From Actinomadura sp. 6K520 (GTDB taxonomy: Bacteria > Actinomycetota > Actinomycetes > Streptosporangiales > Streptosporangiaceae), in assembly GCF_004349245.1 (NCBI RefSeq), contig NZ_SMLC01000002.1:82383-146382 (forward strand): a DNA stretch of 64,000 bases, read 5' to 3'. The notes under the pieces were generated by a model that was not told the DNA's origin, did no database searches, and saw only the letters and a list, made by a program, of their open reading frames with translations. The position numbers and the translations under genes are program-made. Within the stretch, counting starts at the first letter, position 1, and each line of letters starts with the position of its first letter. Of this stretch, positions 8,204-53,176 are shown piece after piece.

Positions 8204-8268
8204 GCCAACTCCTCAAGGATCGAAGCGGGCCGGGCCGGCGTCGTGGCGCCGGCGCGGCGATGGGGGGT

Positions 8269-27523: not shown

Positions 27524-27552
27524 GGCGTTTGCTCCTTCTGGTTGGCTGCCGC

Positions 27553-34349: not shown

Positions 34350-34374
34350 GTTCCCCAGATTGAAACAGTGTTTC
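34350..34374. promoter_or_regulatory. GAAAC/GTTTC composite operator (membrane-protein gene)
   Basis: GTTCC at 34350-34354, seven bases, GAAAC at 34362-34366, three bases, GTTTC at 34370-34374. It ends 17 bases before the GTG of the next gene, a position suited to repression. Confidence 0.62.
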
Positions 34375-37401: not shown

Positions 37402-37424
37402 CCAGTTCGAAGGGAATGCAGCCG

Positions 37425-38708: not shown

Positions 38709-40156
38709 ACTCCCCGCACCGTGACCTGGTGGCCGGGGAGTGGGCCGCGGCTCCCGGCGGCGGGCCCGTCCTGGAGGACCCGGCCACCGGTGAGGAGGCC
38801 GGGCCCGCCCCCGTCACCGGCCCCGCGCGGCTGGAACGGGCGCTGGCCGCGGCCGGCGACGCGGCGGAGGGCTGGGCCGCGCGCCCCGCCGCCGAGCGCG
38901 CCGAGCTGCTGGACGCGGTCGCGGGCACCCTGGAACCGGTGACCCGGGAGATCGCCGCCCTGGAGGCGGCGGCCACCGGCGTCCCGATCCGGCAGGCGGT
39001 CCCGCTCGGCGTCATCGTGCCGGGGTCGTTCCGGCTGGCCGCCGAGCAGTTGCGCGGCGGCGGGCTGGAGACGTCCTTCACCCGCGAGGACGGCGGGGTG
39101 GCCGAGGTGCGGCGGCTGCCGTGGGGGCCCGCCCTGTGCCTGGTCCCGTGGAACGCGCCCGCCCCGATGGCCGCGCACAAGGTGGCCAACGCGCTGGCCG
39201 CGGGCTGCCCGGCGATCCTCAAGCCCAGCGAGTACGCGCCGTACGGGGCCCAGCGGTTCGCCGAGGCCGTCGGTGCCGCGCTCGCGGACCGGGGCGTCCC
39301 CGGCGGGGTCTTCCAGCTCGTGCACGGTACCGGGGCCACCGGCGCGCGGCTGACCGCCGACCCGCGGATCCGCGCGGTCTCGTTCACCGGCGGCGCCGCG
39401 GGCGGCCGGTCGGTCGCCGCCGCCTGCGCGGCCGGGATCAAGCCCGTCCAGCTGGAGCTCGGCGGCAACAACCCCCTGGTCGTGATGCCGGACGCCGACC
39501 CCGGCCGGGCCGCGCGGACCGCCGTGGACCTGCTCACCACGCTCAACGGCCAGTGGTGCCGGGCGCTCGGCCGGCTCATCGTGCCCGAGCCCCTCCAGGA
39601 CGCGCTGCTGGAGGCGATCGGCGAACGGCTCGCGGCGCTGCGCGCGGGCCCGCCGCTGGACGAGGACACCGACCTCGGGCCGCTGGTGCACTCGCGCCAC
39701 CGCGACCTGGTCGCCGCCCGGCGGGACGCGCTCGGCGGCCGGGTCCTCGCCACCACCAAGGTCCCGGACGAGGGCAGCTACCTGGCCCCCGCGCTGGTCA
39801 CGGACGTCGACCCCGGCGACGCCACCGAGGAGATCTTCGGGCCGGTCGCCACCGTCCACCCCTACCGGACGCTGGACGAGGCGGTGGCCCTGGCCAACGG
39901 CACCGCGTACGGGCTCGAAGGGTACGTGACCGGCACCGACGAGGACGCGGCCCTCGCCGTGGCGCGGCGCGTCCGCGCCGGGGAGGTGAAGGTCAACGGC
40001 TCCAGCGTGCTGAGCCTGCACCTGTTCGCGCCCCGTCCCGCGTGGGGGGCGTCCGGGCTGGGCGAGGAGGGCACGGCCGAGACCCTGCGGTTCTTCACCA
40101 ACCCGCGGGTCGTCGGCGTGGAGAACGGGTTCGCCCTGCACTCCCGGGAGCCGTGA
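38705..40156 (+). CDS. NAD(P)-dependent aldehyde dehydrogenase
   Basis: 483 residues with VPWNAPAPMAAHK, KPSEYAP, VSFTGGAAGG, the catalytic Glu motif LELGGNNP and the catalytic Cys in NGQWCRALGR. The C-terminal motif EEIFGPVATVHPY is standard. It oxidises an aldehyde to the acid. Vanillin- and benzaldehyde-type enzymes are of this kind; the substrate here is unknown. A formyl group or the phytol-derived aldehyde are candidates if the neighbouring pathway is chlorophyll breakdown. It is translationally coupled on both sides. Confidence 0.9.
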   Translation: MNSPHRDLVAGEWAAAPGGGPVLEDPATGEEAGPAPVTGPARLERALAAAGDAAEGWAARPAAERAELLDAVAGTLEPVTREIAALEAAATGVPIRQAVPLGVIVPGSFRLAAEQLRGGGLETSFTREDGGVAEVRRLPWGPALCLVPWNAPAPMAAHKVANALAAGCPAILKPSEYAPYGAQRFAEAVGAALADRGVPGGVFQLVHGTGATGARLTADPRIRAVSFTGGAAGGRSVAAACAAGIKPVQLELGGNNPLVVMPDADPGRAARTAVDLLTTLNGQWCRALGRLIVPEPLQDALLEAIGERLAALRAGPPLDEDTDLGPLVHSRHRDLVAARRDALGGRVLATTKVPDEGSYLAPALVTDVDPGDATEEIFGPVATVHPYRTLDEAVALANGTAYGLEGYVTGTDEDAALAVARRVRAGEVKVNGSSVLSLHLFAPRPAWGASGLGEEGTAETLRFFTNPRVVGVENGFALHSREP

Positions 40157-41301
40157 TGGCGCCGGTGCCGGTGCTGGTGGCAGGGGCGGGCCCGGTGGGG
40201 CTCACCGCGGCGCTGGCCCTGGCGCGCCGCGGTGTCCGGGTCACCGTGCTGGAGGCGGAACCGGGGCTGGCCGCGGAGTCGCGTGCGTCCACCTTCCATC
40301 CGCCGTCGCTGGAGATGCTGGACGGGCTCGGCGTGCTGGAGCCGCTGCTGGAGCGCGGCCTGGTCTCCCGGACCTTCCAGTACCGGGAACGGCGCGGCGG
40401 CGTCGTCGCCGAACTGGACCTGGCGGTGCTGGCGGGCGACACGCCGTACCCGTTCCGCGTCCAGTGCGAGCAGGGCAAGCTCACCCCGATCCTGCGCGAC
40501 CACCTCGTGGCCGCGGGCGGTGCGGTCCGGTTCGGCGCGGCCGTGCGCGCGGTCCGGCCGGGCCCGGACGGGGTGGAGGTGACGACGTCCGCCGGCGACC
40601 GGGTCAGCGGCGCCTGGCTGATCGGCGCGGACGGCGCCGGCTCGGCGGTGCGGCAGGACCTGGGCATCGGCTTCGACGGCATGACCTACCCCGAGCGGTT
40701 CCTGGTCGCCTCCACCCGGACCGCCGTCGAGGACCTGCTGCCCGGCATCGCCGCGGTGAACTACGTCTTCGACCCCGGCGAATGGCTGGTGCTGCTGCGC
40801 ACCCCGGACCACTGGCGGGTCCTGTTCCCGACCCCCGAGGACACCCCCGACGCCGGCGAGCTGGCGCGGCTGCCCGAGCGCCTGCGCGGGGTCGCCGACG
40901 TCACCTGGGACGTCGCGCACGCCAGCCTGTACCGCGTGCACCAGCGCGTGGCGGAGACGTTCCGGACGGGCCGGGTGCTGCTGGCCGGGGACGCGGCGCA
41001 CGTCAACAATCCGCTCGGCGGCATGGGCATGAACAGCGGCATCCACGACGCGGTGCTGCTGGCGGGCGCGCTCGCGGACGTCCTGGCGGGCGGCCCGGAG
41101 GCCCTGCTCGACGCCGTCGCCGCCGCCCGCCGCGACGTCGCGCGGTCGTTCGTCGGCCGGCTGACCCACGCCAACTGGGAGCGGATGCGCGACCCGGCCG
41201 GGTACCGGGACGAGCTCCGGAGGCTGGCCGGAGACCCCGCCGCGGCCCGCCGGCACCTGCTGCGCACGTCGATGATCGCCTCGCTGCGGGACGTCGCGTG
41301 A
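40156..41301 (+). CDS. FAD-dependent aromatic monooxygenase (PHBH fold)
   Basis: 381 residues with the three flavin motifs of the p-hydroxybenzoate hydroxylase fold: GAGPVGLTAALALARRG near the start, the DG motif GADGAGSAVRQDLG, and the GD motif LLAGDAAHVNNPLGGMGMNSG. It inserts one oxygen into an electron-rich ring with NAD(P)H. ATG 40156 shares a base with the preceding stop, so it is co-translated with the aldehyde dehydrogenase. In a tetrapyrrole pathway it could oxidise a linear bilin or pyrrole, but this is speculation. Confidence 0.9.
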   Translation: MAPVPVLVAGAGPVGLTAALALARRGVRVTVLEAEPGLAAESRASTFHPPSLEMLDGLGVLEPLLERGLVSRTFQYRERRGGVVAELDLAVLAGDTPYPFRVQCEQGKLTPILRDHLVAAGGAVRFGAAVRAVRPGPDGVEVTTSAGDRVSGAWLIGADGAGSAVRQDLGIGFDGMTYPERFLVASTRTAVEDLLPGIAAVNYVFDPGEWLVLLRTPDHWRVLFPTPEDTPDAGELARLPERLRGVADVTWDVAHASLYRVHQRVAETFRTGRVLLAGDAAHVNNPLGGMGMNSGIHDAVLLAGALADVLAGGPEALLDAVAAARRDVARSFVGRLTHANWERMRDPAGYRDELRRLAGDPAAARRHLLRTSMIASLRDVA

Positions 41302-41320
41302 CGCCCGGTGCGGTCGCCTG

Positions 41321-42745
41321 ATGCCCGGTGAGATCGTCCGGGAGAACCCGGCCCGGCTGGACGAGGTCGTCGGCCGGGTGCCGGTCGCGGACGACGCCGA
41401 GGTCGACCGGGCAGTCCGGGAGGCCGAGGCCCGGCAGCGCGACTGGTGCCGCGTGCCGGTCGAAGACCGGGCCGCCGCGCTGCTCCGGGCCGCCGACGCG
41501 GTCGACGCGATGCCAGGCGTGGCGGAGCTGCTGGCCCGCGAGTCCGGCAAGCCGCGCGCCGACTGCGCCGGCGAGCTGCGGTTCGCCGCCGCCTACCTGC
41601 GCTGGGCGGCGGAGCGCACGCCCGCGGTGTTCGCGGACCACGAGACCGACGACGCGGCCGGGCGGCTCGTCCTGCGCCGGCGCCCCTACGGGGTCGTCGC
41701 GGCCATCACCCCCTGGAACGCGCCCGTCATCCTCACGCTGCTGAAGGCCGGTCCCGCGCTGGCGGCCGGGAACACGGTGGTGGTCAAGCCGTCGCCGCTC
41801 GCGCCGCTGGCGGTCACCCGCGTCATGGCGGCGTTCCCGCCGGGGCTCGTGCGGGTCGTGCACGGCCATGCCGGGACCGCGCGGGCGCTCGCCGGCCACT
41901 CCCGCGTGCACCGCGTCGCGTTCACCGGCGGCGCGGAGGCGGGCCGCGCCATCGGGGCGGCCGCCGCCAAGGCGATCACCCCCGCGCTGCTGGAGCTGGG
42001 CGGCAACGACCCGGTGGTGCTGCTCGACGACGCGGACCTCGCGGACGCGGCGATGGACCGGCTGGTGCTGGCGTCCTTCGCCACCGCGGGCCAGGTGTGC
42101 ATGGCCGCCAAGCGCCTGTACGTCCCGAGGGCGCGGCTGGCCGAGGTCCGCGACGCCTACCTGGCGGCGGCCGCGCGGACGCTGGTGCTCGGCGACCCCC
42201 TCGACGCCGCGACCACGGTCGGCCCGGTCATCTCGGCCGCGGCGGCGGACCGCGTCCGGGCGCTGGTCTCCGGCTCGCGGCGGCGGGGCGGCACCGTCAC
42301 CGGGCTGGGCACCGTCACGGCCGACATGGGACGCGGGCACTTCGTCCGGCCCGCCCTGGTCACGGACGTGGCCGACGACGCGCCGGTGGTGGCCGAAGAG
42401 CAGTTCGGCCCGGTCGTGCCGCTGCTGGCCTACGACGACGAGGACGAGGTGGTGGCGCGCGCCAACGCGGGCGACCTCGGCCTCGGCGCGTCGGTCTGGT
42501 CCGCCGACGAGGAGCGGGCGTTCGCGTTCGCCCGCCGCTTCGACGCGGGCTTCACCTTCGTCAACACCCACAACCGCACCGGGATGGCGCTGCGCGCGCC
42601 GTTCGGCGGCGTGAAGCGCAGCGGGCACGGCCGCGAGTACGGCACCGAGGGCCTGCTTGAGTACGCGCAGACGTGCGCGATCCACGCCCCCGCCGCGTTC
42701 CGCGCGGACGGCACCGGCATGAGCGCGGGCGCCTACCCCTCCTGA
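41321..42745 (+). CDS. NAD(P)-dependent aldehyde dehydrogenase (second copy)
   Basis: 474 residues: ITPWNAPVILTLLKAGPALA, VKPSPLAPLAV, VAFTGGAEAGR, LELGGNDPVVL and the catalytic Cys in GQVCMAAKR; EEQFGPVVPLLAY near the end. It is a distinct paralogue of the enzyme at 38,705-40,156 and closes the oxidative gene block. ATG 41321 has a weak ribosome site and lies 19 bases after the previous stop. Confidence 0.9.
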   Translation: MPGEIVRENPARLDEVVGRVPVADDAEVDRAVREAEARQRDWCRVPVEDRAAALLRAADAVDAMPGVAELLARESGKPRADCAGELRFAAAYLRWAAERTPAVFADHETDDAAGRLVLRRRPYGVVAAITPWNAPVILTLLKAGPALAAGNTVVVKPSPLAPLAVTRVMAAFPPGLVRVVHGHAGTARALAGHSRVHRVAFTGGAEAGRAIGAAAAKAITPALLELGGNDPVVLLDDADLADAAMDRLVLASFATAGQVCMAAKRLYVPRARLAEVRDAYLAAAARTLVLGDPLDAATTVGPVISAAAADRVRALVSGSRRRGGTVTGLGTVTADMGRGHFVRPALVTDVADDAPVVAEEQFGPVVPLLAYDDEDEVVARANAGDLGLGASVWSADEERAFAFARRFDAGFTFVNTHNRTGMALRAPFGGVKRSGHGREYGTEGLLEYAQTCAIHAPAAFRADGTGMSAGAYPS

Positions 42746-42808
42746 GCCCGCGCCCCAGGGCCATTGCCTTCCCGCGCCCCGGAGTGCTTAATTGAGGTGG
42801 CCATATTG

Positions 42809-42833
42809 GAAACTCTGTTTCTCTCATGGAAAC
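42809..42833. promoter_or_regulatory. GAAAC-N3-GTTTC-N7-GAAAC composite operator (secreted hydrolase)
   Basis: GAAAC 42809-42813, TCT, GTTTC 42817-42821, TCTCATG, GAAAC 42829-42833, all three half sites exact. The inner repeat extends to CTCTGTTTC/GAAACAGAG, nine-base arms. It lies 23 bases before the hydrolase ATG. The strongest copy of the motif in the window. Confidence 0.72.
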
Positions 42834-42856
42834 AGAGGTTTGCCTTCGGAGGCAGC

Positions 42857-43837
42857 ATGCGCCCCGTACGTGCCGTCCGGACCCTGGCCGCGGCCAGCGC
42901 CGCCACCCTCGCCCTGACCGCCCTCGGCCCCCTCGCCCCCGCGCACGCCGCGGTCTCCCGCGTCCAGACCACCGTCGAGATCCGCTGCGCGTTCACGACC
43001 CTGAACCAGAGCGCCGACTGGTACTTCCCCTCCGGCTCCCCGCAGGGCCTCGTGTGGCTGCAGCACGGCTTCGCCCGCGCCAACGACCACGTCGCCGACC
43101 TGGCCTCCCGGTACGCCGCGGCCGGCTACCTGGTCTTCGCCCCGACCCTGCCCAGCGCCAACCTGTTCGGCTGCACGCTGCAGAACATCGGGAACAACAC
43201 CGCCTTCCTCGGCAACGTCGCCGACCTCTTCGCCAAGATGGGCGACCCGTCCGACAAGCTCGGCCGCAGCTTCGCCAGGGCCAAGGCCGAAGCGGGACGC
43301 CCCGGGCTCGCGCTGCCCGGCTCCCTCGTCCTCTCCGGGCACTCGGCGGGCGGCGAGGCCGTCGGCTACGTGGCCGGGCGGCTCCGCACCGACAACGCCG
43401 CCGCGTGGGCCCGGGTGCGCGGCCTGGTCCTGCTGGACCCGGTGAAGTCGTTCATCGGCGACAACCTCGGCACCGGGCTGCGGGCGGTGGACGGCACCGG
43501 CCGCATGGTCCGCACGATCTCCGCGCCGGACGGCACCTGCAACAACGGCGGCAGCGGCACCGACGCCGTCCAGGCGGGCGTGCGCTCCCCGTTCGTCGGC
43601 GTCCGGCTGCCCGGCGGCGCGCACACCGACGCCGAGGGCGCGAGCACCGACTCCGTCGGGACGATCGCCTGCGGGACGCCGAAGGCGGAGAACGTCGCGG
43701 TCCTGCAGACGTTCGCGGTCGCCTGGGCCAAGGACGCCTTCAACGGCACGCAGACCCCCGCCTACCTGCCCGGCGGCTCCTACTACCAGACGCAACTGGG
43801 CGCGGGCAGGATCCAGACCCTGACCGGCGCCTCCTGA
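42857..43837 (+). CDS. secreted alpha/beta hydrolase (chlorophyllase/cutinase-like esterase)
   Basis: 326 residues: signal peptide 1-31 (ending APAHAAV), then an alpha/beta hydrolase core with the oxyanion region VWLQHGFARAND, nucleophile Ser163 in LVLSGHSAGGEAVG and several Cys likely in disulfides. This fold includes chlorophyllase, PET hydrolase-like esterases and lipases. With a chlorophyll b reductase-like gene and bilin-reductase-like genes just downstream, removal of the phytol ester outside the cell is an attractive role; a general polyester or lipid esterase is the alternative. ATG 42857 has GGAGG upstream, and the operator just in front suggests regulated expression. Confidence 0.8.
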   Translation: MRPVRAVRTLAAASAATLALTALGPLAPAHAAVSRVQTTVEIRCAFTTLNQSADWYFPSGSPQGLVWLQHGFARANDHVADLASRYAAAGYLVFAPTLPSANLFGCTLQNIGNNTAFLGNVADLFAKMGDPSDKLGRSFARAKAEAGRPGLALPGSLVLSGHSAGGEAVGYVAGRLRTDNAAAWARVRGLVLLDPVKSFIGDNLGTGLRAVDGTGRMVRTISAPDGTCNNGGSGTDAVQAGVRSPFVGVRLPGGAHTDAEGASTDSVGTIACGTPKAENVAVLQTFAVAWAKDAFNGTQTPAYLPGGSYYQTQLGAGRIQTLTGAS

Positions 43838-43849
43838 CGCCCGGTCACC

Positions 43850-43869
43850 GGTGGGGGCCGCCCCCCACC
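43850..43869 (+). terminator. GC-rich hairpin terminator
   Basis: GGTGGGGG (43850-43857), four-base loop, CCCCCACC (43862-43869), 13 bases after the hydrolase stop. It lacks a U-run, as is common for actinomycete terminators. It separates the hydrolase from the next unit, which has its own operator. Confidence 0.65.
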
Positions 43870-43967
43870 CCCCGGAACGGCTCCTTCCCGGCGGCCGCCG
43901 GTCCCGTGAGCGGGAAGTTTCCGCCCGCGGGATCTGGCGGACCGGGAACCGCGATTGTAGTGTCTTG

Positions 43968-43992
43968 GAAACAGCGTTTCGCTAGAGGAACC
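43968..43992. promoter_or_regulatory. GAAAC-N3-GTTTC operator before the nitrilase-led operon
   Basis: GAAAC 43968-43972, AGC, GTTTC 43976-43980 is an exact 13-base palindrome (with an extra G in front). A degenerate third half site (GAACC, 43988-43992) follows after seven bases. It ends 10 bases before the nitrilase ATG. Confidence 0.66.
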
Positions 43993-44002
43993 GGGAGGCC
44001 CG

Positions 44003-45634
44003 ATGGGTCCGGTCCGCGTGGCCGCCGTGCAGTTCGCGGCCGGCCGGGACGTGCCCGGCAACCTCGCCACCTGCCTGCGCATGATCGACCGCGCCGCCGC
44101 CGAGGGTGCGAGCATCATCGTCCTGCCGGAGTTCTGCAACCGCCTGTCCTGGTACGCGGACAGGGCGGAGGCCCTCCGGCACGCCTGCACCCCGGACGGT
44201 CCGTTCCTCACGGCGATCAAGGAGCGGGCCGCCGCGCACCGCGCGTACGTCAAGGTCAACGTCACCCTCACCACCGGCGGCCGGGTCACCGTCGGCAGCC
44301 TGCTCTACGGGCCGGACGGCGCGCTCCTCGGCCGCTCCGACAAGCTCACGCTGATGGGCGCCGAGGGCGACAACCTCGACCCCGGCACCGCCGCCGGTCC
44401 CGTCGTCGCCACCCCGCACGGCCGGCTCGGCATGTACGCGTGCATGGAGGGCGTCACCAGCGACGTCCCCCGCGACCTGGCCGTGCGCGGGGCGCAGGTG
44501 CTGCTGAACAGCCTCAACTCGTTCGCCACCGACGAGGCCGGGCTGCACGTCCCGGTCCGCGCGGCGGAGAACAGGGTGTGGGTGGTGGCGGCCAACAAGG
44601 TCGGCCCGCTGCTGCCCGCCGACCTGCTGCCCGCGATCGCCGAGCGGCTCGGCGTCCCGGCCGGCCTGCTGGACGGGGCGGGCGAGAGCCAGATCGTCGC
44701 CCCCGACGGGACGGTCGTCGCGAAGGGCCCGCGCACCGGCGAGGCCGTCGTCGTCGCCGACATCGACCCGTCGCTCGCCGACCGCAAGACCCGCCCGGAC
44801 GGCACCGACCTGTTCGCCGCCCGCAGGCCGCGGCTGTACACGCCGATCGTGGCGGCACCGCGTCCCCGATCCGCACCGCCCGGCGAGGCGAAGGTGGACG
44901 TCGCCGCCGTCCGCTCGCCCGGCCTGGTGCGGGACGCCGCGCTGGCGGGCGCCGAGCTGATCGTCCTCCCGGAACTGGCGTTCGGCGTGGACGCCGACCC
45001 CGGCGCCGTCGTCGCCGCGCTGGCCACCGCGCTCGACGGCACCACCGCGCACGCGGTGACGACCGTCCGGGCGGGCGCCGCGCACGCCGCCTACCTGGTG
45101 AACGCCCGCGGCCTCGCCGGAAGCCAGCCCCAGCTGCACGCCTGCGCCCGGCACTCCGGCTGGGCCACCGAGTACGGCAAGCGGCTCGCCGTCTTCGCCC
45201 TCCCCTGGGGGCGGCTCGCGCTCGTCCCCGGCGACGACGCCCTCTACCCCGAGGTCTTCCGGCTCGCCGCCATCGCCGACGCCGACGCCGTCGCGGTCCC
45301 GTGCACCCCCGCCGAGGACTGGGAGATCGCCCTCGGCCTGCCGGAACGCGCCGCCGAGAACCGGCTGAACGTCGTCGCCTCCGGGCCGGACGACGGCGTG
45401 GTCCTCGCGCTGCCCGCCGACTTCACCCTGTGGACGTCCTGGGCGGGGCCGTTCGAGGGCCGCATCAGCCACCCCCTGGTCACCCGCGCGTCCGGGCCGG
45501 TCACCGTGGCCGCCGTCCATCCCGCGCAGGCCGTGAACCGGCTCGTGTCCAAGAACACCGACCTGGTCGGCGGGCGTCCCGCGCACGCGGTCGCCGCGCT
45601 GGCCGACGACGACCCGAGCGGAGTGCGCCGTTGA
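44003..45634 (+). CDS. tandem nitrilase-family protein; second domain inactive
   Basis: 543 residues with two carbon-nitrogen hydrolase domains. The first (about 1-270) has the complete Glu-Lys-Cys triad: Glu43 in VLPEFCN, Lys114 in RSDKLTL and Cys147 in MYACMEGVTSD. The second (about 290-520) repeats the fold (LIVLPELAFG) but has no Cys at the expected place (the strand reads ALVPGDDALYPE), so it is probably structural. The family hydrolyses nitriles, amides and carbamoyl groups. First gene of an eleven-gene unit running to 53,176. ATG 44003 has GGGAGG upstream. Confidence 0.85.
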   Translation: MGPVRVAAVQFAAGRDVPGNLATCLRMIDRAAAEGASIIVLPEFCNRLSWYADRAEALRHACTPDGPFLTAIKERAAAHRAYVKVNVTLTTGGRVTVGSLLYGPDGALLGRSDKLTLMGAEGDNLDPGTAAGPVVATPHGRLGMYACMEGVTSDVPRDLAVRGAQVLLNSLNSFATDEAGLHVPVRAAENRVWVVAANKVGPLLPADLLPAIAERLGVPAGLLDGAGESQIVAPDGTVVAKGPRTGEAVVVADIDPSLADRKTRPDGTDLFAARRPRLYTPIVAAPRPRSAPPGEAKVDVAAVRSPGLVRDAALAGAELIVLPELAFGVDADPGAVVAALATALDGTTAHAVTTVRAGAAHAAYLVNARGLAGSQPQLHACARHSGWATEYGKRLAVFALPWGRLALVPGDDALYPEVFRLAAIADADAVAVPCTPAEDWEIALGLPERAAENRLNVVASGPDDGVVLALPADFTLWTSWAGPFEGRISHPLVTRASGPVTVAAVHPAQAVNRLVSKNTDLVGGRPAHAVAALADDDPSGVRR

Positions 45635-46434
45635 AGGAGACCCTGCAGCACGTCGAGCAGATGGTGGACGAGTCCCCCGCCGTCGACGTGACCGACACCT
45701 TCCACCGGTTCGGCACGATCCTGGACGGCCTCAAGGCCAGGATCGACGAACGGTTCGAGCTGGCGCGCGACCCGTCCACCGACGACCTGGAGTCGTACGG
45801 GAACCCGCCCGAGAGCCCCGGCGGGCGCCTGGCCGCCTACAGCGGGCCCGAGGTCGACTGGATGGTCCACTCCTGGCTCGGCAACCCCACGGCCGGCTTC
45901 GCCAACCTGCACCTGACGGTGTGGCTCGGCCCGCACATCCGGGTGCCGCACCTCGGCGTCGCGCTGCTCGTCTGGCCGGAGGGCTGGTTCTACGTCGACT
46001 CGGTGCCCCGCGCCAACCTGCTCGCGGACGGCGAGTACTACGACGCCTACTACGAGCCCCTCAACGCGGAGTGGCTGGCGGTCCGGGAGCAGAACCCGCA
46101 GCTGGAATGGTTCACCAGCCGCGCCGGGTTCATCCGGGCGAGCCTGTCCCCCACCGCCCACTGCCACTCCTTCCCCCGCGAGGAGAAGAACATCGACCTG
46201 GTGGAGCGGCTGCTCACCGGGCACGTGGACCGCTGGCTCGGCTGGGTGGACGAGGCCGAGCCCGTCCCGGCGGCCGACCGCGCCGCGCTCGCCGCCGCCG
46301 ACCTGGCGACGCGCCGCAACATCGCCGAACGCGACCCGGCGAACGTGATGGGCGTCCGGTACTTCGGCCGGGAGCTGACCGACCGGCTCGTCCGCGCCCT
46401 GTGGGGCGGCGACCGGAAGCTGCCCCGGCCATGA
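45631..46434 (+). CDS. red chlorophyll catabolite reductase-like (bilin reductase superfamily)
   Basis: 267 residues. The C-terminal half resembles plant RCC reductase: FIRASLSPTA (167-176) corresponds to the conserved FVRSAFSPTA-like strand, and RDPANVMGVRYFGRELTDRL (from 234) matches the family's C-terminal DP-x-R-x-G-E-x-R-L signature with the conserved Asp (Asp235). EYYDAYYEPLNAEW fits the YLKEYY helix region. The family reduces bilins with ferredoxin electrons and without a metal. The TTG at 45631 overlaps the previous stop (TTGA), with GCGGAG upstream; an ATG at 45661 is the alternative. The substrate would be an open-chain tetrapyrrole. Confidence 0.75.
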   Translation: MKETLQHVEQMVDESPAVDVTDTFHRFGTILDGLKARIDERFELARDPSTDDLESYGNPPESPGGRLAAYSGPEVDWMVHSWLGNPTAGFANLHLTVWLGPHIRVPHLGVALLVWPEGWFYVDSVPRANLLADGEYYDAYYEPLNAEWLAVREQNPQLEWFTSRAGFIRASLSPTAHCHSFPREEKNIDLVERLLTGHVDRWLGWVDEAEPVPAADRAALAAADLATRRNIAERDPANVMGVRYFGRELTDRLVRALWGGDRKLPRP

Positions 46435-47363
46435 CGAACGTCCGGTCGCTGTGGTGGTCGGCGGACACCGGCGGCCCCGCGCCCTTCGGCACCGCGCACC
46501 TCAAGGTGTACTACCCGGCCCGCGCGGAGGGCACCGACGCCGAGCGGCTGTCGGGAGAGATCCCGGCCGATCCGCGGGGCGCCCCCTACCCGGTGGTCGT
46601 GTTCTGCTCCGGGGTGAACGTCGAGCAGGCCGTCTACCGCCCGCTGGCGGCCGGCATCGCCGCCGCCGGATTCGTCGTCGTGACGTTCGACCGGGTGGCC
46701 GAGCTGTTCGGCGGCCGGTACGGCCTCACCCCCGGCGTCGACCTGGACGCGGCCAGGCCCGGCACCTACGGCACGCGGCCGACCTGCCCGGCCCTGCCCG
46801 CCGTCCTGGACGCGCTGGACAGGATCGACCTGCTCAAGGGTTCGCTCGACCTGACCCGGATCGCCCTCGGCGGGCATTCCGCGGGCGGCACCGTGGTGCT
46901 GCAGTCCGCCCGGTTCGTCCCCGGCGTCCGGGCCTGCTTCGGCTACGGGACGCACACCATGGTCGCCACCATGCTCGGCTGGCCCGCCGGAACCGTCCTG
47001 CCCGCGCAGGCCGGCTGCCCGGTGCTGCTCGGCGTCGGCACGCGCGACGGCGTCATCATGGGCAGCTCCGACCGGTACGGGCAGGACGCGCCGTCCGACC
47101 CCGTCACCCGCACCTTCACCGAGGCGCTGCACGATCCGCGCGACCTGCTGGCCGTCGTGCGGGGCGCCAACCACTTCGCCGTGGCGGACCCGGTCGACCC
47201 GACCGCCGCCCGCGCGTTCCTCGACCTGCCGCCCGAGACCGACCCCGCCGAGGCACGCCGCGCCTTCACGGACCTGGTCGCCGGCTTCCTGCGCGCCCAC
47301 GTGCGCGGGGAGGACGTAAAACCGTCCGCCGACCCGGCGCTCATCGACCTGCGGCGACGATAG
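46431..47363 (+). CDS. chlorophyllase-like alpha/beta hydrolase
   Basis: 310 residues without a signal peptide, so cytoplasmic. The core starts AHLKVYYPA and PYPVVVFCSGVNVEQAVYRP, with AAAGFVVVTFD following, the layout of chlorophyllases and PAF-acetylhydrolase-like enzymes. Nucleophile Ser150 is in GGHSAGGTVV, and His in GANHFAVAD is the likely triad base. Chlorophyllase removes phytol from chlorophyll. The placement between an RCC-reductase-like gene and a Rieske oxygenase gene supports this, but a general esterase is possible. ATGA overlap with the gene before. Confidence 0.75.
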   Translation: MTNVRSLWWSADTGGPAPFGTAHLKVYYPARAEGTDAERLSGEIPADPRGAPYPVVVFCSGVNVEQAVYRPLAAGIAAAGFVVVTFDRVAELFGGRYGLTPGVDLDAARPGTYGTRPTCPALPAVLDALDRIDLLKGSLDLTRIALGGHSAGGTVVLQSARFVPGVRACFGYGTHTMVATMLGWPAGTVLPAQAGCPVLLGVGTRDGVIMGSSDRYGQDAPSDPVTRTFTEALHDPRDLLAVVRGANHFAVADPVDPTAARAFLDLPPETDPAEARRAFTDLVAGFLRAHVRGEDVKPSADPALIDLRRR

Positions 47364-47375
47364 GGAGAGCCCGTC

Positions 47376-48524
47376 ATGCTCAAGAACTTCTGGTACGCGG
47401 TCGAGTTCGCGCACGCGGTCACCCGGGCCCCGAAGCGGGTGACCTGCCTCGGCCAGGACTTCGTCCTCTACCGCAAACGCGACGGCGGCGCGGTGTGCCT
47501 GTCCGACCTGTGCGCGCACCGCGGCGCCGCGCTGTCGGGCGGCACCCTCGTCGACGACAGGCTCGCGTGCCCGTACCACGGGTGGCAGTACGAGCCGGAC
47601 GGCGCGTGCAGCAAGATCCCCGCCAATCCGGAGGGGCGCGGCATCCCGAAGCGGGCCCGCGTCGACTCCTATCCCGTCCAGGAGCGGTACGGGATGGTCT
47701 GGGCGTTCCTCGGCGACCTGCCGGAGGACGAGCGCCCGCCGCTCCCGCACTTCCCCGAGCACGACGACCCCGCGTTCCGCACCGTGTACGTCGAGATGGT
47801 CATCGAGGCGAACTACGAGCGGACGTTCGAGAACGTCGTGGACGCCGCGCACACGCCGTTCGTGCACGGCACCCGGTTCGGCAATCCGGACAAGCCGGAG
47901 ATCCCCGACTACGAGGTCACCGAGGACGAGTGGTCGGCGACCGCCGACATCCGGCTCAGCCCGCCACCGGCGGGCGGCCTGTGGAAACGGCTGTACAAGG
48001 GGCGGCCGGAGGAGGTCGTCGTCACCAACGGCTGGTACCTGCCCAACATCGTGAAGCTGCACGTCCGGCTGCCGTTCGGGGACATGATCCTCTACGACCA
48101 CAACGTCCCGCTCGACCGGCACCGCACCCTCGTCAAGATCGTCGGATACCGGAACTTCTTCACCGGCAAGTGGGCCGACAACGACGCCCGCAAGCGGATC
48201 CGCAGCATCCTGCTGCAGGACAAGGTGGTGGTGGAGACCCAGCGTCCGGAGCTGCTGCCCTACGACCTGCCCGGCGAGCTGCACCTGCGCTCCGACGCCC
48301 TCCAGGTCGCCTACCGGCGGCGCCGCCAGAAGCTGATGGCCGACGGCTGGTGGCTCGGCGAGGACGAGGAGTTGCCGGTCAACGGCAGGCGCGGCAGCGC
48401 CACCGTGATCCCGTCCCCCGCCCGCCGGGAGAATCCGGAACTGGCCCGCGCCTGGCAGCACCGCCCCCGCGGCGGCGTCCCGGTGCCCCTCGACGGGGCC
48501 GGCGGCGAAGGAGAGGGCGAGTGA
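47376..48524 (+). CDS. Rieske non-heme iron oxygenase (PAO/VanA-like)
   Basis: 382 residues. Rieske ligands Cys46-x-His48 in CAHRGAALSGG and Cys65-x2-His68 in CPYHGW; mononuclear iron region ENVVDAAHTPFVH with His159 and His164. Overall order and the CPYHGW, PDGACSKIP stretch resemble pheophorbide a oxygenase (PAO), Tic55 and vanillate demethylase. PAO opens the pheophorbide ring to red chlorophyll catabolite. The C-terminal CxxC and membrane helix of plant PAO are missing. With RCC-reductase-like genes on both sides, a ring-opening role is the best inference; demethylase is the alternative. No ferredoxin or reductase gene is next to it. ATG 47376 follows GGGAGAG. Confidence 0.85.
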   Translation: MLKNFWYAVEFAHAVTRAPKRVTCLGQDFVLYRKRDGGAVCLSDLCAHRGAALSGGTLVDDRLACPYHGWQYEPDGACSKIPANPEGRGIPKRARVDSYPVQERYGMVWAFLGDLPEDERPPLPHFPEHDDPAFRTVYVEMVIEANYERTFENVVDAAHTPFVHGTRFGNPDKPEIPDYEVTEDEWSATADIRLSPPPAGGLWKRLYKGRPEEVVVTNGWYLPNIVKLHVRLPFGDMILYDHNVPLDRHRTLVKIVGYRNFFTGKWADNDARKRIRSILLQDKVVVETQRPELLPYDLPGELHLRSDALQVAYRRRRQKLMADGWWLGEDEELPVNGRRGSATVIPSPARRENPELARAWQHRPRGGVPVPLDGAGGEGEGE

Positions 48525-49297
48525 GCGTGTCCGCGCCCAAGGCGCTGAACGACCGGACGCTGGCGGCCCTGGCCGATGTCGAGCCGCTGGAGACGGTCCG
48601 CGAGAAGGTGCTCACCAGCGTCCTGTCCCCGGAACCGGCCGGCACGCTGACGGTCCTGACCGGTGAGCGGATCGCCAAGGTCGTCTGCATCGGCCTGACC
48701 GTCGACCGGATCGGCATGGACAGCCACATGATCTTCGCGTTCACCGGCGCGGACTCGGCCGTCCCGCACTTCACGCTCGACTCGGTGCTCGCGGGCGGGC
48801 AGCTCGCCTACCACATCGACCTCGTGCCGCGGGTCGACCTCGGCGCGCACCTGGCGTACGTCAACGCGGTGTTCCAGCCGCTGACGCCGGTGTACGAGGA
48901 GGTCAAGGAGCGGTTCGGGCCGTCCACGGCGGCGATCGGCCCCCGGCAGCACGCCATGATGTCGCCCTGGATGCTCGTCAACCGGGCCGACGACGAGCAC
49001 TTCGCGCAGATCGGCACCTACCTCGACCGCTACTTCGAGCATTGGCGCGACCTGCTGGTGAAGGGCGTCCCCGGCGACGTCCTAGGCACGCTCGCCGGCA
49101 CCGACCTCGCCGCGCGCGACGCCCGCAACCGCGCCGCGCTGTTCAGCCCGGAGGTGGACCCGGTGTGGGCGAACGTGGCCCGGCTGCTCGGCGACGCGCA
49201 GGCCGAGGAGCTGCGCGCCGAACTGCTCAGCAACGACCTGCTCAGCAACGACCTGCTCAGCGACCACCGGCCGGGCGGAGGCGCCGCCGATGGCTGA
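48521..49297 (+). CDS. bilin reductase-like protein (FDBR/RCCR superfamily), second paralogue
   Basis: 258 residues. It shows the superfamily layout: PHFTLDS strand (83-88), GGQLAYHIDLVPR, YVNAVFQPLTPVYEE, then MSPWMLVNRAD (147-157) and a helix with YLDRYFEHW. The C-terminal signature DPVWANVARLLGDAQAEEL (Asp213) matches the DP-R-G-E pattern of ferredoxin-dependent bilin reductases. It is only distantly similar to the protein at 45,631-46,434, so the two may reduce successive double bonds or be subunits. The tail carries a 15-base tandem repeat coding LLSND. GTG 48521 overlaps the previous stop with GAAGGAG upstream. Confidence 0.72.
   Translation: MSVSAPKALNDRTLAALADVEPLETVREKVLTSVLSPEPAGTLTVLTGERIAKVVCIGLTVDRIGMDSHMIFAFTGADSAVPHFTLDSVLAGGQLAYHIDLVPRVDLGAHLAYVNAVFQPLTPVYEEVKERFGPSTAAIGPRQHAMMSPWMLVNRADDEHFAQIGTYLDRYFEHWRDLLVKGVPGDVLGTLAGTDLAARDARNRAALFSPEVDPVWANVARLLGDAQAEELRAELLSNDLLSNDLLSDHRPGGGAADG
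49223..49267. repeat. 15-bp tandem repeat, 3 copies
   Basis: Units at 49223, 49238 and 49253 (the last diverged) coding for LLSND-LLSND-LLSDH at the C-terminus of the second bilin-reductase-like protein. Confidence 0.88.
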
Positions 49298-50243
49298 GCC
49301 GAGCGAGTGGCAGCGCCGCATCGAGGGCGAGTGGCACGGCCGGCCGTCCCTGTTCGACGCGGCCGGCACCTGGCAGGGGTACGAGGACATCCGCCGCTCC
49401 TCGGTCTTCGCGGACGGCGTCACCACGTACTACATGGACGGCGGACTCGAAGGCGGCGGCCCCCTCGCGGGACGGTTCCGGCTCGGCGCGCCGTTCGCGT
49501 TCGGGGTGGTCGACTCCGACGGGGACCGCGTCTACACCGGGCCCGACTTCCACGGCACCGGGCAGCCCTACGGCGGGTTCGTCGACGCGCACTACTACGG
49601 GCCGGGCTGGCAGGTGGACCTCAACACCTGGAACCACGTGCTGCCCGACGGCCAGACCCAGGTGTACTCGTCCACCCTGTACCAGGGCTGGGCGGTCGTG
49701 GGCTGCTTCAACGGCGTCTACAAACGCACCACCGACTACGACACCAACCCCGCGACCAGGGACACGATCGAACGGTTCCTCGCGGAGGAGACCCGGCACG
49801 GCCCGGTCCCGTACATCCTGCCGACCAAGCAACGCGGCGCGTACAGCGGGACGTGCGAGCTGTGGGGCGCCGACCAGAAACCGGCCGGCGAGGTCACGGT
49901 GTCGATCGGGCTGGAGCCCGTCGACCTGCTGCGCACCCGCCAGCACGTCACCTGGACCGGCGCCCTCGACCGGGCCTACACGGTCGAGGCGCGCCGCGAC
50001 GGGACTCGCTCCTTCTACGAGGGCCCGGACGCCTGGGGCAACGCGCAGGCGTTCGGCCGGGCCAACTACCCCGTCCTGCACTTCTCCGACGACGTGTGGA
50101 AGGCCAAGGGACGCGAGTTCATGGTCGACGCCACCCCCGGGATGACCGCCGGCGAGACCCTCACCGTCGTGTACGAGCTGTTCAGGGGCAACGTCCTGCA
50201 CGCCGTCCTGCACGGCGTCCTGAGCTGGGAGGCCGGGGTATGA
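49290..50243 (+). CDS. conserved-looking protein of unknown function in the tetrapyrrole operon
   Basis: 317 residues, not recognised. No signal peptide or membrane helix. It is rich in aromatic and Gly residues with alternating short strands (VTTYYMDGGLEGGG, FGVVDSDGDRVYTGPDF, VDLNTWNHVLPDGQTQVYSS), which suggests a beta-barrel or calycin-like fold, followed by a second beta region (TVSIGLEPVDLLRTRQHV). It overlaps the previous gene by eight bases and the next by four, so it is surely part of the pathway. A pigment-binding or magnesium-removing role would fill a gap in the scheme, but there is no direct evidence. Confidence 0.8.
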   Translation: MAEPSEWQRRIEGEWHGRPSLFDAAGTWQGYEDIRRSSVFADGVTTYYMDGGLEGGGPLAGRFRLGAPFAFGVVDSDGDRVYTGPDFHGTGQPYGGFVDAHYYGPGWQVDLNTWNHVLPDGQTQVYSSTLYQGWAVVGCFNGVYKRTTDYDTNPATRDTIERFLAEETRHGPVPYILPTKQRGAYSGTCELWGADQKPAGEVTVSIGLEPVDLLRTRQHVTWTGALDRAYTVEARRDGTRSFYEGPDAWGNAQAFGRANYPVLHFSDDVWKAKGREFMVDATPGMTAGETLTVVYELFRGNVLHAVLHGVLSWEAGV

Positions 50244-51022
50244 CGGGCCGGGCGGTGGTCATCACCGGCGGGACCCGCGGCATCGGGCTCGGCCTCGCCG
50301 CGGAGTTCCTGGCCCGCGGCGTCCGCGTCGCGATCTGCGGCCGGTCGGGCGAGTCGGTCGGCAAGGCACTCGCCGAACTTGGCGACGGCGCGGTCGGCGT
50401 GGTCTGCGACATGGCCGACCGGGACCAGGTGCAGGCCCTCTGGGACGCGGCGGCCGAGGCGTTCGGGCACATCGACCACTGGATCAACAACGCGGGGGTG
50501 TCCACCTCCCGCCGTCCCCTCACCGACCTGCCGCCCGAGCAGCTCGAAACCGTGGTGGCGGCCAACCTGCTCGGCGTGATGCACGGCAGCGCCGTCGCGG
50601 TGCGGGGCATGACCGCCCAGGGCGGCGGCACCGTGTGGAACATGGCGGGGCTCGGCAGCGACGGCCGGACCGTCCCCGGCCTCATCGCCTACGGCGCGAC
50701 CAAGCGCGGCACCGACTACCTCACCACCGGCCTCGCCAGGGAGGTCAGGGGCGGCCCGGTCAGGGTGGCGCACCTGTCCCCCGGCATGGTCGTGACCGAC
50801 CTGCTGCTCCGCGACTACTCCCCCGACGAGCTGGCCAAGGCGAAGAAGATCTTCAACATTCTCGCCGACCGAGTGGAGACGGTGACGCCCTGGCTGGCCG
50901 AGCGGATTCTCGCCGGGACCAGGAACGGCGGCACGGTCGCCTGGCTCACCACCCCCAAGGTCATGGCCCGGTTCACGCTGGCCCCGTTCCGAAGGCGCGA
51001 CCTGTTCGGGGCGGAAGCATGA
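50240..51022 (+). CDS. NYC1/NOL-type chlorophyll(ide) b reductase-like SDR
   Basis: 260 residues. Short-chain dehydrogenase with TGGTRGIGLGLA cofactor motif, CDMADRD, WINNAG, and the YGATK active site (Tyr151, Lys155). Beyond the general fold it matches plant NOL/NYC1 in unusual places: IDHWINNAGVSTS, the GSDGRTVPGLIAYGATKR stretch, LSPGMVVTDLLL, then AKKIFNILADRVETV and the late GGTVAWLTTPKVMARF. These segments align with NOL/NYC1 motifs as I recall them. That enzyme reduces the 7-formyl of chlorophyll b on the way to chlorophyll a. ATG 50240 overlaps the previous stop. The most diagnostic gene of the operon. Confidence 0.85.
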   Translation: MTGRAVVITGGTRGIGLGLAAEFLARGVRVAICGRSGESVGKALAELGDGAVGVVCDMADRDQVQALWDAAAEAFGHIDHWINNAGVSTSRRPLTDLPPEQLETVVAANLLGVMHGSAVAVRGMTAQGGGTVWNMAGLGSDGRTVPGLIAYGATKRGTDYLTTGLAREVRGGPVRVAHLSPGMVVTDLLLRDYSPDELAKAKKIFNILADRVETVTPWLAERILAGTRNGGTVAWLTTPKVMARFTLAPFRRRDLFGAEA

Positions 51023-51648
51023 CCGACTACCCGGTCGCGCTCGCCGCCGAGGACTTCGTGCCGGTGGCGCTGACCGCGCTGGGCATGGCGATGCTGCGGC
51101 ACCGGCATCCGCTGGTGCCCGCGGCCGCCGCCCTGGTCGTGGCGGGCGGATTCGGCAAGGCCACCTGGAAGCTGGTCGTCGCGCTCGGCGGCCCGGACCT
51201 CCCCTGGCTGCGCGGCGCCCTGTTCCCGCTGCTGGCGATCGGCTTCACGGCGTTCGCGTACGCGCTGTCCCGGGAGTCGCGCCGGCCGCCGCATCCGGCG
51301 GTGCTCGCGGTCCCGGCGATGACGGCGCTTGCCATGTCGGCCGTCCTGCGCGACACCTGGCCCGCGCTGCTGTGGACGATCGTCGCTGTGACGGCCGCCG
51401 CCGTCCTGCTGGCGCGGTCCGCCGCGCGGGCGGGCGACCCGCTCGCGGCGACGCTCTTCGGCCTCTGGCTCGCCGGACAGTACCTGCTCGGCCCGATGGC
51501 GGCGCGCGCCGAGCAGTCCGTCCCCCTCCAGTGGGTGGAGCAGTCCTGCAACACCCTCGCCCAGGCCGCCTTCGCGTTCGCCGCCTGGCACCTCACCAGA
51601 ACGACACGGACCCGAACGGAACGGACCGGGGAAAGGGCGGCGGCGTGA
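51019..51648 (+). CDS. six-helix membrane protein, unknown function
   Basis: 209 residues with about six hydrophobic helices and a short Arg/Thr-rich cytoplasmic tail. It is not recognised; His and Arg residues (LRHRHPLVP) flank the first helices. It is co-translated with the NOL-like gene (ATGA) and the maleate-isomerase-like gene (GTGA). A membrane role in pigment handling or transport is guesswork. Confidence 0.75.
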   Translation: MTDYPVALAAEDFVPVALTALGMAMLRHRHPLVPAAAALVVAGGFGKATWKLVVALGGPDLPWLRGALFPLLAIGFTAFAYALSRESRRPPHPAVLAVPAMTALAMSAVLRDTWPALLWTIVAVTAAAVLLARSAARAGDPLAATLFGLWLAGQYLLGPMAARAEQSVPLQWVEQSCNTLAQAAFAFAAWHLTRTTRTRTERTGERAAA

Positions 51649-52388
51649 CGGACGCACTCGGCTGGCGGCGCAAGTTCGGCGTGATCGCGCCGTCCACCAA
51701 CACCATCGTCGAACCCGACTTCCACCGGATGAGCGTCCCCGGTGTGACGTCCCACTTCTCCCGCATCCACATCCGCGACCAGGACATGGCCGGGGACGAG
51801 GGCATGGAGCGGCTCCTGGCGCAGATCCGCGACGAGATCGGCGCGGCCTGCGAGCGGGTCCTGACCTGCGAGCCCGACTACATGGTGATGGGCATGTCCG
51901 CCGAGACGTTCTGGGGCGGGATCGAGGGCAACAGGCAGTTCGTCGAGCAGATCAACGCCATCACGGGCCTGCGGGTGGCGACCGGTGCCGAGGCGTGCGA
52001 GCGCGCGCTGAAGCTCTACGGGGCGCGGCGCATCGGCGTCGTCACCCCGTACCAGCCGGTCGGCGACGTCAACGTCCGGCGGTTCTTCACCGAACTCGGC
52101 TTCGAGGTCGACCGCATCATCGGCCTCAAGTGCCCGACCGCCGTGTCGATCGCGCACGTCACCGACGCCGAGCTGCGCGCGGCGCTGCGCGAGCTGGCCG
52201 CGGGCGAGGTCGACGCCCTGGTCCAGTGCGGCACCAACCTGTCGATGGTCCGCACGGCCGACGAGGCCGAACGCTGGCTCGACCTCCCCGTCATCGCGAT
52301 CAACGCCGCCACCTGGTGGATGGCCCTCCGCGACAACGGCATCGACGACCGCGTGTACGGCGCGGGAACCCTCCTGCGCGAGCACTGA
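51645..52388 (+). CDS. maleate isomerase/arylmalonate decarboxylase-family protein
   Basis: 247 residues of the Asp/Glu racemase-like maleate cis-trans isomerase family: FGVIAPSTNTIVEPDF at the start, VVTPYQPVGDVNVRRFF in the middle, and the second-domain Cys195 in VQCGTNLSMV. The first-domain Cys of maleate isomerase is not seen (the loop reads MGMSAETFW), which points to a decarboxylase or a variant isomerase. In maleimide or pyrrole breakdown, maleate-type acids arise after amide hydrolysis, so it could act late on pyrrole-ring fragments together with the nitrilase-like enzyme; inference only. Confidence 0.8.
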   Translation: MTDALGWRRKFGVIAPSTNTIVEPDFHRMSVPGVTSHFSRIHIRDQDMAGDEGMERLLAQIRDEIGAACERVLTCEPDYMVMGMSAETFWGGIEGNRQFVEQINAITGLRVATGAEACERALKLYGARRIGVVTPYQPVGDVNVRRFFTELGFEVDRIIGLKCPTAVSIAHVTDAELRAALRELAAGEVDALVQCGTNLSMVRTADEAERWLDLPVIAINAATWWMALRDNGIDDRVYGAGTLLREH

Positions 52389-53176
52389 TGACCAGGGGCT
52401 ACGTCGACACCGGGTGGGGCCAGGTCCACTACCGCGCCTGCGGTGACTCCGGCCCCTGGATCGGGCTGTTCCACGAATCCCCGCTGTCCTCCCGCGTCTT
52501 CGAGGACGTCCTGCCCGTACTCGGCCGCCGCGCCCGCGCCGTCGCCTTCGACACCCCCGGCTACGGCGCGTCCGACCCGCCCCCCGGACCGGGCTTCGAG
52601 ATCCCCGACTACGGCCGCGTCCTGGCGGAGGCGGCGGCCGGGATCGGGATGGAGAGGCCGGTTCTCGCCGGCGTGCACAGCGGAGCGTCCCTCGCCCTCG
52701 CGGCCGCCGCGCACCTGCCGGCCGCGGGCCTGGCCCTGAGCGGCGTCCCGCTGTTCACCCCGGAGGAGCGGGCCGGCTTCATCGCGGGATGGACGCCCGA
52801 GGCCCCGCTCGACGACCGGGGCTCCCAGTTCACCTGGGCCGTCGAACGCTACCTGCGGAGCTGGGGGCCGGACCTCCCCCGCGAACTCCTCCACCTCGCC
52901 GTAGTGGAGCTGATGCGGGTGGCGGACCGCTACGAGTGGGGCTACCAGGCCGCGTTCCGCTTCGACCCCTCGGAGGCCCTCGCGGCGGCGGACGTCCCCG
53001 TCCTCCTCCTCAACGCCGAGTTCGACAGGCTCGCCCCCAAGGACGCCCTCGCACTGGACCTGGCACGCGACGCCCGCCTGGTCGTCCTCCCCGGCCTCCC
53101 CGGCCAGCCGCACCTGCGGGCCCCCGGCGACTTCGCCGCAGCGCTCCTGGCCTTCACCCTGGAAGCCGGCTCCTGA
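52388..53176 (+). CDS. alpha/beta hydrolase (esterase)
   Basis: 262 residues, cytoplasmic. Nucleophile Ser98 in LAGVHSGASLA, acid Asp in LLLNAEFDRLAP and a late His (LPGQPHLRAPGDF). It resembles 3-oxoadipate enol-lactonase and methylesterase types. In the plant pathway the C13 carboxymethyl ester is cut by MES16, so a methylesterase role is possible here. ATG 52388 shares one base with the previous stop. Last gene of the unit; convergent with a secreted-protein gene four bases away. Confidence 0.8.
   Translation: MTRGYVDTGWGQVHYRACGDSGPWIGLFHESPLSSRVFEDVLPVLGRRARAVAFDTPGYGASDPPPGPGFEIPDYGRVLAEAAAGIGMERPVLAGVHSGASLALAAAAHLPAAGLALSGVPLFTPEERAGFIAGWTPEAPLDDRGSQFTWAVERYLRSWGPDLPRELLHLAVVELMRVADRYEWGYQAAFRFDPSEALAAADVPVLLLNAEFDRLAPKDALALDLARDARLVVLPGLPGQPHLRAPGDFAAALLAFTLEAGS

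Follow-up and report, generated by a model that had tools for sequence, protein, structure and literature searches.

A conserved, palindrome-linked gene cluster that probably serves the catabolism of a tetrapyrrole is present in the genome of Actinomadura sp. 6K520. The window analyzed here is a stretch of 64,000 nucleotides (assembly GCF_004349245.1, contig NZ_SMLC01000002.1, positions 82,383–146,382) within a 146,382-base contig of this 8.19 Mb genome. The cluster combines two RCCR-like proteins, termed C and F, with a Rieske non-haem iron oxygenase (E), a predicted calycin (G) and a set of catabolic enzymes. Gene content, gene order, conservation across genomes, the family membership of C, the common palindrome and the comparison with control stretches were observed directly; the substrate we infer, and on balance we favor chlorophyll-type tetrapyrroles, broken down for carbon and nitrogen.

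The cluster consists of 16 genes, U1–U5 followed by A–K, which occupy positions 36097–53176 on one strand. All open reading frames claimed in a first-pass annotation of this DNA are present where it placed them and contain no internal stops, and from B (44003) onward neighboring genes overlap by 1–8 bases with a 12-base gap as the single exception, as it had reported. Upstream of B, 165 bases separate A from B and 111 bases separate U5 from A, and U1–U5 form a tight block. Our data support its view of one operon-like run, catabolic in character, in which a Rieske oxygenase adjoins two proteins of the RCCR superfamily. The run is genuine, and it is both longer and more ordered than described. 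The first pass had missed the U1–U5 block and an IclR-family regulator, and had noted neither the palindrome nor the surface proteins. Judged by the cluster proteins, the closest named relatives are Actinomadura livida (L004) and Actinomadura sp. GC306 (L002), with 87–96% identity. Plasmid carriage was considered and rejected, as no match was found among 72,556 records.

A scan of species genomes returned 121 relatives, of which the best 80, from 18 genera by record title, were kept; together with two loci from outside the class (L085 and L086) they make up 82 loci. Counts over these 82 loci require at least 50% of the query and exclude loci L116–L125, counts over 92 loci for the regulator and the surface-protein region use a query coverage of 40% or 35%, and the controls are forty 20-kb stretches from four cluster-bearing genomes. 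C was found in all 82 loci, E and F in 80, B and G in 79, J in 78, H in 77 and D in 76; among the cluster genes, only U3 (2/40) and U5 (3/40) gave hits in the controls. As 79 of the 82 loci hold all four of C, E, F and G, 78 of them with order and strand kept, the arrangement is far beyond chance. The loci with all four genes cover 17 of the 18 genera; the sole Planomonospora locus, L050, has no G. L050, L060 and L080 each miss at least one of the four, and L060 has C alone. L080 was considered as a minimal RCCR–Rieske pair and dropped, since its E covers under half of the query and another frame follows C. The exception in order, L012, is rearranged, with E and G on the opposite strand beyond J and with C, D, F, H and J together. 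C-E-F-G form an unbroken run in L085 and L086, and neither D nor H turned up within the 20 kb fetched.

The association also holds at the level of whole genomes. Matches to the RCC_reductase family (PF06405) occur in 15 of 394 class genomes. G was found in 12 of the 394, every one of them inside those 15 (P 1.8e-20); of the three PF06405-positive genomes that lack G, two are incomplete and the third is G453. Occurrence is scattered, with 3/396 in a phylum sample and 9/150 in the family, the genome under study being counted in both, and 8/120 in another family (f8). In a further family (f78), the cluster was found in 6/6 genomes searched, with assemblies of only 1.0–1.7 Mb, a size that might point to streamlined planktonic actinobacteria. 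The number of PF06405 matches per genome reaches four here, of which no more than three exceed the cut-off, and the gene order of these genomes, which lies outside the 82-locus count, is C-D-E-G-G-H-I-J in L123 and U2-E-F in L120.

The protein C (45631–46434, + strand; 267 aa, TTG start) scores 45.8 bits against PF06405, over the Pfam cut-off of 24.9, and 19.1 bits against Fe_bilin_red (PF05996), under the cut-off of 31. Its AlphaFold model has the RCCR/FDBR fold and matches Arabidopsis RCCR, and together with the Pfam score this bears out the RCCR-like reading of the first pass. Structure comparison places the fold equally near PebB/HY2 and RCCR, and a Ycf2-FtsHi subunit, which is no tetrapyrrole enzyme, is also among the fold matches. 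In a tree, AtRCCR groups with C and not with F (100/100, with a long-branch warning). E154 and D291 are the catalytic acids of plant RCCR. C does not have the acid E154, its position being A111 in 99% of 80 homologues, and D235, adjacent to plant D291 in the alignment, is kept in 100% of the 80.

F (48521–49297, + strand; 258 aa) is a divergent second RCCR/bilin-reductase-like paralogue. HHalign links it to C (97.5%, E 8.8e-12), and weak PF06405 matches occur in 13 of 23 members of its alignment (best E 4e-4). F itself matches no Pfam family, so the PF06405 cut-off is not reached, and its profile gave chance hits only against the PDB; the RCCR-like assignment of this second protein is supported by profile only. 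Residues D87, D213 and H69 are present in 100% of 70 F homologues.

E (47376–48524, + strand), the candidate ring opener, carries the Pfam Rieske and VanA_C domains. Its Rieske residues C46, H48, C65 and H68 and the residues D156, H159 and H164 are present in 100% of 77 homologues, and its nearest solved structures are SxtDIOX, SxtT and NdmA. The PaO domain (PF08417) did not match E up to E 0.1, and the PAO character proposed earlier for this protein is not upheld; PF08417 was matched in 0/10 cluster genomes and in 2/14 control genomes, one of them over the cut-off. G (49290–50243, + strand) had been left as an unassigned candidate for the magnesium dechelatase. Its predicted fold is that of a two-barrel calycin, and the dechelatase reading was rejected on this ground. 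In a comparison with the CpeS/CpcS, DUF3598 and BFA1 families the predicted structure shows the calycin barrel fold, and the bilin lyase CpeS and Rv2717c are among the calycins nearest to the model. On its predicted fold, common to bilin lyases, G is a candidate bilin binder.

The cluster is further marked by a palindrome, GAAACNNNGTTTC, of which 145 exact sites occur in 73 of 80 loci and none in the 40 controls (0.8 Mb). For 134 of these sites the start of a cluster-family gene is no more than 350 bases away (B 92, A 22, C 8, IclR/U1 3, others 9), and 11 are unassigned. A palindrome lies within 300 bp of 66/74 B homologues (median 24 bp) and within 400 bp of 20/32 A homologues. The exact copies in the window are at 33532, 34362, 42809 and 43968: GAAACAGCGTTTC (43968–43980) upstream of B, GAAACTCTGTTTC (42809–42821) upstream of A, GAAACAGTGTTTC (34362–34374) upstream of a gene for a probable membrane protein, and GAAACAAAGTTTC (33532–33544) between a sortase gene and a run of surface-protein genes. 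When a 14-base form of the palindrome is searched with up to two mismatches, the window gives 14 matches against 5.25 expected, a number reached in 0/100 shuffles. Upstream of U1 there is only a copy with two mismatches. An IclR-family regulator (35113–35937, − strand; PF01614 161 bits) is divergent from U1, is found in 32/92 loci and 3/40 controls, and shares 55% identity with the IclR protein adjoining the L116 cluster. The natural reading of the palindrome is an IclR operator, a regulator–site pairing that we infer. The palindromes at B are often shared with a divergent gene for a Dabb or a membrane protein. The small Dabb protein (PF07876) is encoded in 52/82 loci, mostly divergently and directly upstream of B so that the palindrome region is shared; in L002–L081 its gene lies mostly near 7.9 kb. 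A lone RCCR gene in Nonomuraea corallina (L060, 10001–10819) keeps GAAACNNNGTTTC 74 bases upstream of its start (9914–9926).

The remaining core genes, all on the + strand, encode mainly hydrolases and oxidoreductases. A (42857–43837) is a secreted α/β hydrolase with a signal-like N-terminus, found in 35/82 loci. D (46431–47363) is an α/β hydrolase of PAF-AH/PETase/chlorophyllase-like type (PF03403 32.9 bits, cut-off 20). B (44003–45634) is a carbon–nitrogen hydrolase, or amidase, whose PF00795 match (134 bits) spans residues 5–259 of 543, leaving the C-terminal half with no Pfam match; E43, K114 and C147 are present in 100% of 74 homologues. H (50240–51022) is a short-chain dehydrogenase/reductase (SDR; PF00106 138 bits) that matches generic SDR models only; a specific kinship with NYC1/NOL, as first proposed, did not emerge from these matches. 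I (51019–51648) is a small hydrophobic protein of 209 aa, by its translation probably in the membrane, found in 48/82 loci. J (51645–52388) belongs to the arylmalonate decarboxylase (AMDase)/maleate-isomerase superfamily (PF17645 71.8 bits, cut-off 25.9) and matches 2xed (E 2.4e-12). It has a single conserved cysteine at the two usual places, C195 corresponding to the second and M84 replacing the first, in 100% of 78 homologues. Maleate isomerase has two catalytic cysteines, and J does not have both. K (52388–53176; PF12697 37.3 bits) occurs in near relatives only (6/82 loci). It is an α/β hydrolase that matches general hydrolase models only, with nothing in those matches that links it specifically to MES16.

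The upstream block, on the same strand, begins with U1 (36097–37401), a flavin reductase (PF01613 152.9 bits, cut-off 27) fused to an HMGL-like lyase domain (PF00682 37.9 bits, cut-off 29). The flavin reductase part is found in 28/82 loci and the lyase part in 22/82; many loci end before U1 or U2. U2 (37425–38708; PF02770, PF08028 and PF02771; 48/82 loci) has the acyl-CoA dehydrogenase fold and is likely the flavin monooxygenase partner of U1. U3 (38705–40156; PF00171 356.5 bits) and U5 (41321–42745; PF00171 419.8 bits) are aldehyde dehydrogenases, each present in 69/82 loci, and U4 (40156–41301; PF01494 201 bits; 65/82 loci) is an FAD-dependent monooxygenase. No ferredoxin or reductase partner was recognized among the core genes, to which the search was confined.

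The catabolic tail varies with lineage. A C–C lyase of the ICL/PEP-mutase, HMGL or HpcH/CitE Pfam family is present in 61/82 loci and 0/40 controls, the other 21 loci having none, and CoA-transferases are found in 7/82 loci and 1/40 controls. In L120, L121 and L124 the cluster contains an isochorismatase-type amidase, and B was not seen in the fetched stretch. The combination of amidase, arylmalonate-decarboxylase-family enzyme and interchangeable C–C lyases suggests that maleimide-like fragments are mineralized. For the lyase, amidase and CoA-transferase tails, a 2,3-disubstituted maleate would be a fitting substrate, this being the skeleton that remains from a pyrrole ring. Mono- and dipyrrolic products arise from chlorophyll degradation (PMC7318184). 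Genes for a branched-chain (Liv)-type ABC importer were found in 6/92 loci, including beside the L116, L119 and L123 clusters, with Pfam matches for two. An esterase of the MES/pheophorbidase family is encoded in 4/92 loci (L085, L116, L119 and L123); the one in L123 (18890–19591), the only one of the four compared with solved structures, matches SABP2 (E 3e-12) and pheophorbidase 5hk8 (E 1e-4). Haem has no isocyclic-ring methyl ester. In plants, MES16 takes off this ester (PMC8219035).

Upstream of the block, two of the window palindromes (33532 and 34362) flank a sortase gene, the gene for the membrane protein and a minus-strand run of surface-protein genes. The sortase (33667–34335, + strand; PF04203 107.5 bits) has counterparts by homology in the clusters of L117 and L118. 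The hydrophobic, probably membrane, protein (34392–35099, + strand) has no Pfam match and is found in 7/92 loci and 0/40 controls, a homologue of 33% identity adjoining the L085 cluster. The minus-strand run comprises a secreted WxL-like surface protein (32160–33479; PF13731 22.8 bits, below the cut-off of 25), with a homologue in L116 alone among the 92 loci; a WxL-interacting-like surface protein (31066–32100; PF06030 23.5 bits, below the cut-off of 27.3), with homologues in two loci, L116 and L123, of which the L123 protein exceeds that cut-off; a secreted surface protein with no Pfam match (29960–31069), with homologues in the same two loci; a membrane protein fused to an ABC-ATPase-like domain (28122–29963; PF00005 20.1 bits, below the cut-off of 25; 20/92 loci, 2/40 controls); and two secreted proteins of the neocarzinostatin family (PF00960, cut-off 25). 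The first of the pair (27553–28125) scores 42.3 bits and is found in 35/92 loci and 0/40 controls, and the second (26849–27535, start uncertain) scores 44 bits and is found in 29/92 loci and 0/40 controls. One family member in L119 carries an LPXTG-type anchor. The neocarzinostatin fold is chromophore-binding, and members of the family carry antibiotic chromophores. Their presence near palindrome-linked clusters (35/92 loci versus 0/40 controls) suggests surface capture of a hydrophobic chromophore. A DNA photolyase/cryptochrome-family gene (25295–26797, − strand) adjoins the run, with no palindrome seen there; it could be relevant to a cell that feeds on a photosensitizer.

Taken together, the cluster could, as a tentative proposal, represent a complete chlorophyll-eating regulon under one IclR operator, with a secreted esterase, neocarzinostatin-fold pigment catchers displayed by the sortase, a non-PAO Rieske ring opener, a pair of RCCR-type reductases, a calycin that holds the bilin and a tail leading from maleimide to pyruvate, carried in several actinobacterial classes, including genomes of 1.0–1.7 Mb, and with RCCRs that are kin of the plant enzyme. 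On the chlorophyll-type reading favored above, the secreted esterase A and the sortase-displayed surface proteins would free and capture the pigment, with a branched-chain-type ABC importer near the cluster possibly taking part in some relatives. D would hydrolyze an ester, and E would then open the macrocycle, which is the job of PAO in plants, done here by a different family. C and F, probably fed by ferredoxin, may carry out a two-step reduction of the open-chain product, like RCCR or PebA/PebB, and the photoreactive bilin might be held or passed on by G. U1/U2, U4, U3, U5 and H would cut the chain and oxidize the pieces to maleimide-like rings; B would open the imide, J would decarboxylate or isomerize the product, and a C–C lyase of HMGL, CitE or ICL type, depending on lineage, would yield central metabolites. 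The IclR protein likely governs much of the pathway via GAAACNNNGTTTC.

Several observations weigh against this reading. The Staygreen (SGR) Mg-dechelatase was matched in 0/10 cluster genomes, although no control genome was positive either. Against the chlorophyllase model PF07224 (cut-off 26), A scores 12.8 and D 22.6 bits, both below, which leaves the chlorophyllase resemblance noted in the first pass under the cut-off, while a hydrolase in L018 passes with 29.1 bits. The solved relatives of E are hydroxylases and demethylases, and ring opening would have to fall to a Rieske enzyme from outside the PAO family. With the single, AMDase-like cysteine of J, the isomerase step is uncertain, and the 82 loci are not independent of one another. 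The substrate might instead be another tetrapyrrole (bilins derived from haem, phycobilins, phyllobilins that plants have already opened, or porphyrins of another kind), with E only demethylating or hydroxylating side chains. We regard this as unlikely, though the relatives of E, the nearness of the C fold to PebB/HY2 as much as to RCCR and the missing acid in C all speak for it. The haem oxygenase PF01126 cuts both ways: it is present elsewhere in 5/10 cluster genomes, this one included, which makes a haem-derived bilin possible, but there it lies on another contig or more than 2 Mb off, and the other 5 genomes have no match. Its absence or distance argues against a haem-oxygenase-fed route, and a bilin reductase so fed was rejected on that basis for PF01126, the IsdG- and HugZ-type families not having been tested. 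Moreover, Pfam places C in RCC_reductase and not in Fe_bilin_red, and the MES/pheophorbidase-family esterases of four loci suit the methyl ester of chlorophyll.

It is a good deal less probable that the run is an ordinary catabolic cluster for N-heterocycles or aromatics, which has taken on RCCR-like proteins for a substrate that is no tetrapyrrole. Rieske and flavin oxygenases, aldehyde dehydrogenases, an amidase, the AMDase family and lyases are typical for such clusters, and the Ycf2-FtsHi match of C illustrates a protein of this fold that is no tetrapyrrole enzyme. Synthesis of a specialized metabolite, either a bilin-type pigment or a pyrrole alkaloid with neocarzinostatin-like carriers, appears very improbable. 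The antibiotic chromophores of that family and the scattered distribution (9/150 family genomes) would suit it, but no synthase-type gene is present among the annotated core genes, the IclR regulator, the importer of some loci and the C–C lyases point to catabolism, and all six f78 assemblies searched, small as they are, keep the cluster.

With chlorophyll breakdown as the favored reading, the cluster resembles the plant PAO/phyllobilin pathway (PMC8219035) in having a Rieske oxygenase beside an RCCR-family reductase, together with esterases and, in four of the 92 loci, one of the MES/pheophorbidase family. It differs in that E has no PAO domain, Staygreen has no match, A and D fall below the chlorophyllase cut-off and C lacks the E154 acid, and it goes beyond the plant pathway by having another RCCR paralogue as well as a calycin and a mineralizing tail. 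The earlier statement that most steps have plant-enzyme counterparts is therefore not supported, with PAO not found, chlorophyllase below cut-off and the SDR generic; among the plant enzyme families, that of RCCR alone was shown to be common to the cluster, which would work like the plant PAO–RCCR stage. Bacterial SGR homologues (PMC8531759) are likewise a chlorophyll-breakdown enzyme family in non-photosynthetic bacteria, unlike the present case in that the 10 cluster genomes gave no SGR match (with a silent control). The pre-PcyA/FDBR clusters of heterotrophic bacteria (PMC10151467) are also conserved, hold bilin-reductase superfamily genes and occur in non-photosynthetic hosts, but their further genes are those for haem oxygenase, V4R, Fe-S and globin proteins, in place of which the present cluster has a Rieske oxygenase together with a calycin and catabolic genes.

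Two further comparisons can be drawn. Isd haem acquisition shares the logic of sortase-displayed surface proteins, an importer, cytoplasmic tetrapyrrole-opening enzymes and one regulator, although the protein families differ and pigment capture by the present cluster is a proposal. The nicotinate/maleamate tail with 2,3-dimethylmalate lyase likewise has an amidase and an Asp/Glu-racemase-superfamily enzyme, with an ICL/PEP-mutase-type lyase in some of our loci; the amidase is a CN hydrolase in the window and of isochorismatase type in L120, and J has one cysteine like AMDase, not the two of maleate isomerase.

Variants of the cluster were seen in several lineages. L120–L124 (f78; genomes G546, G569 and G609) contain two Rieske modules, and in L120 an RCCR gene is followed by one (7640–8317, + strand) for a protein of 225 aa that is rich in Pro and Gly at its start and matches no Pfam family, with homologues in 3/92 loci, all f78. 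All 8 positives of 120 in f8 (L116/L117 and L118/L119) carry two PF06405 genes about 18–21 kb apart on opposite strands; the second falls in a separate clade with L122 and lies, in L116 and L119, beside a MES-type esterase, a Dabb-like protein and an epimerase-like gene. An RCCR homologue, P0330, is named as coming from a Chloroflexota metagenome assembly, and the family may thus extend beyond Actinomycetota.

Chlorophyll turnover is estimated at a billion tons yearly (PMC12930011). Within the literature accessible to our search, we found no gene set for its microbial disposal and no description of an RCCR–Rieske operon in actinobacteria. If our reading is true, genes for bacterial mineralization of chlorophyll or phyllobilins would be identified, along with a testable operator and, in C and G, marker genes for soils and waters. 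It would also provide a second enzymatic route to chlorin ring opening and have a bearing on the origin of plant RCCR.

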